NCBI GenBank assembly: GCA_028679075.1
Contig: JAJRCF010000002.1
Span: forward strand, 62,001-126,000
Origin: Methanoregula sp.
Lineage (GTDB): Archaea; Halobacteriota; Methanomicrobia; Methanomicrobiales; Methanospirillaceae
DNA: 64,000 nt
Direction: 5' to 3'
Shown here piece by piece: positions 62,444 through 64,000 of the stretch. The stretch's first letter is position 1; every line of letters starts with the position of its first letter. A program made the translations under genes and the position numbers. The notes below the pieces were generated by a model. The model worked only from the letters and a program-made list of their open reading frames with translations, did no database searches and was not told the DNA's origin.

Positions 62444-63229
62444 ATGGACAAAAAAAAGGTCAAGGACTATATGACCTATGATGTTGTCAGCGTCGATTTC
62501 AACGGCACGGCAAAGGACGTCATCGACCGGATCCAGAAGACCCATCATGACGGGTTTCCGGTCGTAAAGGAGAACATGGTCGTCGGGTATATATCGGCCC
62601 GTGACCTGCTCTTCGTCCAGCCGGAAACACCGGTCGAAAAGGTCATGTCCTCAAACCTTATTGTCGCCGACCCTGAGATGGACATCAACGATGCAGCCCG
62701 TGTCATCTTCCGGAGCGGTATCCAGAAACTGCCGGTTGTTGACGAGAAGAATAACCTCCTGGGCATCATCTCCAATTCTGACGTGATCCGGTCGCAGATC
62801 GAGCACGTATCTCCTGAGAAAGTCTTCAATTTCATGACCACGCTCAAGAAACTCTATAACGTGGACCCCACGCTCGACCGGGGGACGATACCGGTCAAGG
62901 AACTCCTTCCCACCCAGTCGAAGATCTATGAGGACGAACTGGAGGGCCGGATCTATGAGATCAAGAAGGGGCTCGCCGAGCCGATCATTGTCGTAAAACG
63001 CCCGGGACGCATCATCCTCGTCGACGGCCACCACCGGGCCATAGCGGCAAAGAAACTTGGTATCACCGCGCTCGATGCATACATCATCGAGATCAAGGAA
63101 GATATCGAGCTGGGCATGGAACGCACGGCGCTCGCGATGAACTTAAAAACCCTTGACGATGTGCAGGTGCTCGATTACGCCCGTCACCCGCTTGTTGCGA
63201 TCACGCACCGCCTGGTTAAACGTGTCTGA
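62444..63229 (+). CDS. CBS-pair protein with ParB/SerK-like domain
   Basis: A 261-residue protein. Residues about 7-125 are two CBS motifs (VKDYMTYDVVSVDF... and SGIQKLPVVDEKNNLLGIISNSDV) that bind adenine nucleotides. Residues about 140-245 are a ParB/Srx/SerK-like domain with VDGHHRAIAAKKLG. In Thermococcus a ParB-fold SerK phosphorylates free serine using ADP, so this may be a nucleotide-regulated kinase; a DNA-linked ParB role is less likely without partition genes. It is monocistronic. Confidence 0.82.
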   Translation: MDKKKVKDYMTYDVVSVDFNGTAKDVIDRIQKTHHDGFPVVKENMVVGYISARDLLFVQPETPVEKVMSSNLIVADPEMDINDAARVIFRSGIQKLPVVDEKNNLLGIISNSDVIRSQIEHVSPEKVFNFMTTLKKLYNVDPTLDRGTIPVKELLPTQSKIYEDELEGRIYEIKKGLAEPIIVVKRPGRIILVDGHHRAIAAKKLGITALDAYIIEIKEDIELGMERTALAMNLKTLDDVQVLDYARHPLVAITHRLVKRV

Positions 63230-63242
63230 TGACATGTTAAAC

Positions 63243-63360
63243 CACTCACAGGACTGATGTCCTGTTCGCAGATCAAAAGAGTCTGAAGACTCTTTTTCCC
63301 ACTCACAGGTCTGATGACCTGTTCGTTTGCGAAGAGAGTCTGATAATTTACTCTTTTTCC
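63243..63360 (+). repeat. Two tandem double-hairpin units with T-tracts
   Basis: Each unit contains CACTCACAGG-N-CTGATG-N-CCTGTTCG and then an AGAGTCT...ACTCTTTTTCC hairpin. In unit 1 the first stem is ACAGGA/TCCTGT, in unit 2 ACAGGT/ACCTGT, a compensated change. Both second hairpins end in T-tracts, as in terminators for the upstream CBS gene. Confidence 0.65.
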
Positions 63361-63421
63361 TGCTCTGTTGAAATCATTTCAAGATGCTAACGCTCCCGGG
63401 CTTACATTGTACTCGTGGTGG

Positions 63422-63645
63422 GGGGGTCGGGCGGTGTACTTCCTGTGCGAACAAACCGGTGTGGTTCAGGAAGTTGCCGTCGGAAATTGTCCCCCGGATC
63501 TGGTGGTCACGGGCGACAAAATGTTAAAGTACACCGCCCGACCCCCGCAGGGCCCCTCCCATTTCCGAGCCGGATTCGTCCAGTTTTACGGGGTGGATGA
63601 AGGGACGGTCCTGGCTCCGTGGGTGACGGGGGTCGGGCGGTGTAC
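63422..63645. repeat. Three exact copies of GGGGGTCGGGCGGTGTAC
   Basis: The 18-mer lies at 63422-63439 and 63628-63645 on the plus strand and at 63529-63546 inverted. Each direct copy can pair with the central inverted copy, over spacers of 89 and 81 nt. No gene is associated. Confidence 0.75.
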
Positions 63646-63727
63646 AAATGGAGCGGGCGGGGGAGCTCATATCAAAAAAGGTTATTTACCGAGCTAATTT
63701 TTCAAAGGTTTTGAAAAAGGGATTTTT

Positions 63728-63960
63728 GGCTCTGTAGAAAACCTGTGTGGGATAGTGTTAGATAGGGATGGAGCCACGGGCGCTCGGGGTCTGCCGACCC
63801 TCGCCCCGTGGAACTTAGCCGTATGCGAGCCTTGAAAAAAATTAAAAACTAAGGGGGTCAAGGGGGCTTGCCCCCTTGGACTGCCTCCCCCCCTGGGGGA
63901 GAGAGGGGGTCACACTCGTAATTCCACTGAGTGTATTGTGAGAAGGATTTCTACAGAGCC
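63728..63960. mobile_element. MITE-like element (233 bp)
   Basis: Perfect 13-bp terminal inverted repeats GGCTCTGTAGAAA (63728-63740) and TTTCTACAGAGCC (63948-63960) bound 233 bp, and the 7-bp direct repeat GATTTTT flanks both ends (63721-63727, 63961-63967) as a target-site duplication. The interior has no ORF but has strong hairpins: CCACGGG...CCCGTGG at 63774-63811 and AAGGGGG-CTTG-CCCCCTT near 63860-63877. It would need a transposase in trans. The IS family cannot be assigned from this window. Confidence 0.7.
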
Positions 63961-64000
63961 GATTTTTTATTTTTTAAAAAAACCTACGAACCTTCGTACC

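Follow-up and report, generated by a model that had tools for sequence, protein, structure and literature searches.

A hairpin-bearing MITE of Methanoregula and its likely IS5-family partner

The DNA analyzed here (the window) is a 64,000-nucleotide stretch, C2:62001–126000, of a 2.5-Mb Methanoregula assembly in 40 contigs that is ~90% complete. The locus of interest lies between two convergent genes: upstream, and outside the element itself, a gene for a CBS-domain protein (62444–63229, forward strand), and downstream a 392-aa frame, judged by eye to be sugar-phosphate-nucleotidyltransferase-like, that aligns from window position ~63985 onward. The best matches to the CBS-domain gene are in Methanoregula MAGs (92% identity), where the same convergent gene pair is present. 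The spacer between the genes measures ~755 bp in the window vs. ~100 bp in the nearest relative, Methanoregula sp. OWC_0058 (L135), and the window's spacer holds two MITEs. After the CBS-domain gene, at 63218–63350, a 57-bp unit with small hairpins (AGTCTGA..GACT and CAGGTCTGATGACCTG) is repeated in tandem; L143 and L147 show comparable stacks of hairpins in this position.

The downstream MITE (63728–63960, forward strand), which is the focus of this work, is 233 bp long and opens with the left TIR GGCTCTGTAGAAA (63728–63740, forward strand), mirrored at the other end by the right TIR TTTCTACAGAGCC (63948–63960, reverse strand). The two TIRs pair at 13 of 13 positions and the extended arms at 16 of 17, and no ORF of at least 60 aa was found inside 63728–63960. 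An independent repeat search of the window recovers the same inverted TIR pair, so that the original prediction of an ORF-less 233-bp unit with exact 13-bp inverted ends holds on both direct sequence reading and repeat search. Outside the ends stands GATTTTT (63721–63727 on the left and 63961–63967 on the right, where the next T extends it to GATTTTTT). The proposed 7-bp target duplication is therefore perfect as far as it goes, but the duplication length of the family is 8 bp: perfect 8-bp duplications flank 6 of the 13 paired-end elements in the assembly (ATTTATTT, AAAAAAGG, GATTTCTC, GAATTCTT, AAAAAAAA, and GAATTCTC), with partial ones in several others. Because this 8-bp rule, drawn from sibling copies and ISs, applies to the family, we read the window's GATTTTT as GATTTTTT that has probably lost one T from the T-run of the left copy.

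Searches of the window's own genome covered patterns, DNA, protein, families, and profiles. The 13-bp ends recur there in multiple paired copies and more often than by chance: with at most one mismatch, the left-end 13-mer occurs 17 times vs. 3 for the reversed control, and KGCTCTGTWGAAA matches 34 times vs. 6. Ends resembling KGCTCTGTWGAAA pair as at least 13 inverted-end elements of 224–516 bp, which fall into about five sequence types; we label these A (that of the window), B, C, D, and E, the labels being our own. Three are type A copies, including two further long ones at C4:111072–111300 (94%) and C5:70645–70837 (93%), and 10 belong to the other types. An ~80-bp interior module of the window unit recurs in other elements of the genome. 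Considering frames only, not curated genes, no long open frame was found to span any of the 13 paired elements, and several of the elements sit between convergent frames.

The upstream MITE in the same intergenic region (63361–63695, forward strand) is a 335-bp type C element, 82% identical to C1:267964–268297, that ends 32 bp before the type A element. Its left TIR, TGCTCTGTTGAAA at 63361–63373, is intact and its right TIR has decayed, which indicates that it is older than the adjoining type A insertion. An 18–19-bp motif, GTACACCGCCCGACCCCCG, is present in it three times in alternating orientation. A match to the Rfam family mir-652 over this element (36 bits vs. a cut-off of 73) was taken as spurious.

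Most relatives have short syntenic spacers that contain neither of the window's MITEs. The empty sites that would be anticipated in relatives are thus seen at the level of the spacer, from which the insertion is absent in most cases, but a base-exact empty site was not obtained because the spacers of even the nearest species have diverged too far to be aligned base by base. The recent activity suggested in the original prediction is weakly favored by the perfect ends and by the insertion-free spacers of most relatives; the siblings in the window's own genome, however, are only 93–94% identical, and so there was no burst of identical copies. More widely, type A sequence matches were found in 33 of the 60 genomes searched, nearly all of the same genus, along with a few other genera of the order. 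Aligned full-length type A copies from several genomes keep the hairpins described below, and many have duplications matching at 7 of 8 or 8 of 8 positions. In a few relatives from several Methanoregula species (L140, L154, and L155), different MITE-like pieces occupy the spacer after the CBS-domain gene, which makes this spacer a repeated insertion target.

An autonomous element with the same ends was found in congeners. In one of them (G030), TGCTCTGTAGAAA ends recur as inverted pairs 1006 bp apart, and the unit that they bound is flanked on both sides by CAAAATTT, an 8-bp duplication. The transposase of this IS, a DDE enzyme of 317 aa (Pfam DDE_Tnp_1, E = 6.6e-17), scores 196.7 bits against the NCBIfam model transpos_IS5_2, for which the cut-off is 140. 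The transposase, with conserved blocks AIDSS, MD(R/K)GYDSE, and VE..FS.LK, has matches in 28 of the 39 genomes of the genus, and one congener contains about 11 near-identical copies of the IS. Further genomes yielded partner ISs of 941–1013 bp with the same ends and, in many, 8-bp duplications (8/8 in several). Individual ISs match MITE types A and B in their end variants, with GGCTCTGTAGAAA ends in L112, L114, and L115 and GGCTCTGTTGAAA in L120. Left and right IS ends diverge just inside 13 bp (GAAATC.. vs. GAAAACC..), and the MITEs show both versions. In the window copy, the left 17-bp arm, GGCTCTGTAGAAAACCT, resembles the IS end adjoining the 3′ end of the transposase gene, and the right 17-bp arm is identical (17/17) to one IS end of L114.

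As an observation on the ISs themselves, the transposase frame in L105, L106, L107, L109, L110, L112, L115, and L134 reads through the terminal repeat (..FYRA) and out of the element before it meets a stop codon, which the target DNA supplies; transposase length therefore varies between copies.

The MITE-like character originally proposed is upheld by the copies, TIRs, duplications, and autonomous partner in congeners. It has these features of prokaryotic MITEs: a length below ~500 bp, no transposase ORF, TIRs, a target duplication, dispersed copies, and an autonomous element with the same ends. The search for a same-ended element with a transposase thus succeeded in congeners but not in the window's own assembly, where no intact IS with these ends was found among the 40 contigs. 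The expectation that the same genome should hold a matching full-length IS failed accordingly, its only trace being a relic of ~165 bp from the IS 3′ end (C14:51681–51845, E = 1.7e-5). The autonomous copy has apparently disappeared from the window's genome, which probably leaves the MITE stranded unless the unassembled remainder holds an IS; at ~90% completeness, a copy could be missing. Since homology between MITE and IS spans just 16–20 bp, we base their pairing on the ends and the duplication length, and from these we infer that the IS5-type transposase most likely moves the window MITE in trans.

Another transposase family with similar ends might instead mobilize the MITE, notably one of the IS6/IS240 type. 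IS6-type ends (GGTTCTGTTGCAAA) and 8-bp duplications resemble those of the MITE, and the same genome has one IS6-like transposase gene at C5:75876 (L067, G000:C5:74000–78000), whose 385-aa product has a SWIM-like zinc finger and falls just below the NCBIfam IS6 cut-off. This gene is, however, without flanking ends of the MITE kind. PF13610 genes above the cut-off are present in just 3 of the 39 genomes of the genus, whereas the MITEs are widespread, and the exact ends together with the 8-bp duplication belong to the IS5-type element. With no cognate IS6 transposase sharing the MITE ends, we rejected an IS6/IS240 partner as extremely improbable.

Turning to the interior of the window element, folding gives a DNA energy of -49.5 vs. 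-33.2 ± 3.4 for dinucleotide shuffles (z = -4.75), a fold that includes the TIR pairing. Three hairpins are predicted, all on the forward strand: hairpin 1 (63774–63811, CCACGGG...CCCGTGG), which is kept in most of 30 aligned copies; hairpin 2 (63860–63877, AAGGGGGC/GCCCCCTT), which lies within the ~80-bp module common to type B elements; and hairpin 3 (63885–63901, CTCCCC/GGGGAG), seen in both folding and aligned copies. Such GC-rich hairpins had been noted as unusual for a simple deletion derivative, and the comparison with ISs agrees: between types A–E and 14 ISs of the family, similarity is confined to the outer 16–20 bp, apart from chance-level matches. Although internal deletion of a partner IS is a common origin of prokaryotic MITEs (PMC3852290), the dissimilarity of all 14 ISs inside those terminal bases led us to reject it for each IS compared, and as an account of this mobile element we consider it very unlikely. 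In the two copies compared, the ~80-bp module common to types A and B has opposite orientations, and G031 has a long mosaic copy with A ends and a B-like interior. Because IS similarity stops at 16–20 bp and modules are swapped between types, the MITE interior was most likely gained, and its modules exchanged, independently of the IS.

Conserved hairpins also suggest an alternative, in which the unit serves as a structured RNA or as a terminator-like (REP-like) intergenic repeat and its terminal repeats are incidental. The consensus fold energy of the 30 aligned copies, which come from several genomes, is -37.7 vs. -5.5 ± 3.0 for shuffled columns, and the location of several copies between convergent frames would suit such a role. 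In four copies, two adjacent pairs have changed from G-C to C-G, the clearest paired change; most pairs are invariant, however, so that support from covariation is thin, and all Rfam families score below their cut-offs. The precise ends, the 8-bp duplications, the scattered sites, the absence from most syntenic spacers, and the ends shared with an IS point instead to transposition, and we regard this alternative as highly unlikely. Mobility and function are not mutually exclusive for a hairpin unit. The hairpin modules might conceivably be functional cargo (e.g., mobile transcription terminators or 3′-end stabilizers) that was repeatedly captured between IS5-type ends and exchanged among MITE types, a reading that we consider improbable; if it were true, selection on the interior, beyond transposition alone, would sustain the family across Methanoregula.

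Taken from sequence comparison, it is very likely that 63728–63960 is a non-autonomous MITE, with ends recognized by the transposase of a ~1-kb IS5-family element and a hairpin interior that does not derive from deletion of any of the ISs compared. An IS5-family transposase, from an IS with ISH1-like length and duplication, would bind the 13–17-bp MITE ends and insert the MITE between genes at an AT-rich site, duplicating 8 bp of the target; the hairpin interior would have been acquired separately, conserved, and exchanged as modules between MITE types.

MITEs of the IS5 type are already documented in archaea as a kind, and that of the window is a new family. Those of methanogenic archaea have been paired with, e.g., ISMac15, ISMma12, ISMba19, and ISMbu10 (Kamoun et al., 2013, PMC3852290, Table 4). 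They share with the window MITE the lack of an ORF, a methanogen host, and an IS5-family partner, and are 140–252 bp long with TIRs of 15–17 bp. Compared by description rather than sequence, they differ in having other partners and duplications of 0 or 3 bp, in contrast to 8 bp in the window's family; by the same descriptions, the Methanoregula host and the GC-rich hairpin interior unrelated to the IS also set the window MITE apart. The ISH1 subgroup of the IS5 family comprises elements of 900–1150 bp with an 8-bp duplication and one ORF (ISTth7, PMC6352166, Table 2). The partner IS (941–1013 bp, 8-bp duplication, one IS5-family ORF) fits this subgroup by length and duplication, not by a tree, and the window element differs from ISs of the subgroup in having no transposase.

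In the papers searched, no relevant account of MITEs or ISs in Methanoregula was found, and no earlier description of a MITE for the genus, in which a genus-wide MITE/IS5 system is here defined. This system accounts for many of the GC-rich hairpin repeats in Methanoregula genomes, which might be taken wrongly for regulatory repeats or genes for RNAs.

The best available support, although indirect, for a transposase that would accept the MITE ends comes from a compound arrangement found in relatives and not in the window. A DJ-1/PfpI gene is directly followed by a 177-bp MITE related to type A in five genomes, which represent three families, and the gene and MITE together form a unit of ~0.9 kb that is 93–98% identical between the genomes. 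The compounds of IS, gene, and MITE lie at L246 4827–6221 in G058, L248 4330–6229 in G115, and L249 4358–6253 in G043; L247 and L250 belong to the same set. In G115 and G043 the DJ-1/PfpI gene comes after a complete partner-family IS of 996 bp (84% to the L109 transposase). The IS of G058 has an internal deletion, and the 1395-bp unit from the outer end of the IS to the outer end of the MITE is flanked by GACAAAAA, a perfect 8-bp duplication. Because the G058 compound is bounded by both ends within this duplication, an end of the IS and an end of the MITE seem to have been used jointly in transposition. Mobile insertion cassettes and MITE-bounded compound transposons are a known class carrying passenger DNA, and the IS, DJ-1/PfpI gene, and MITE resemble them in that an IS end on one side and a MITE end on the other enclose a passenger gene. 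The unit, present in three families, is a clear case of a compound transposon with a gene as cargo in which an archaeal MITE provides one of the two boundaries.
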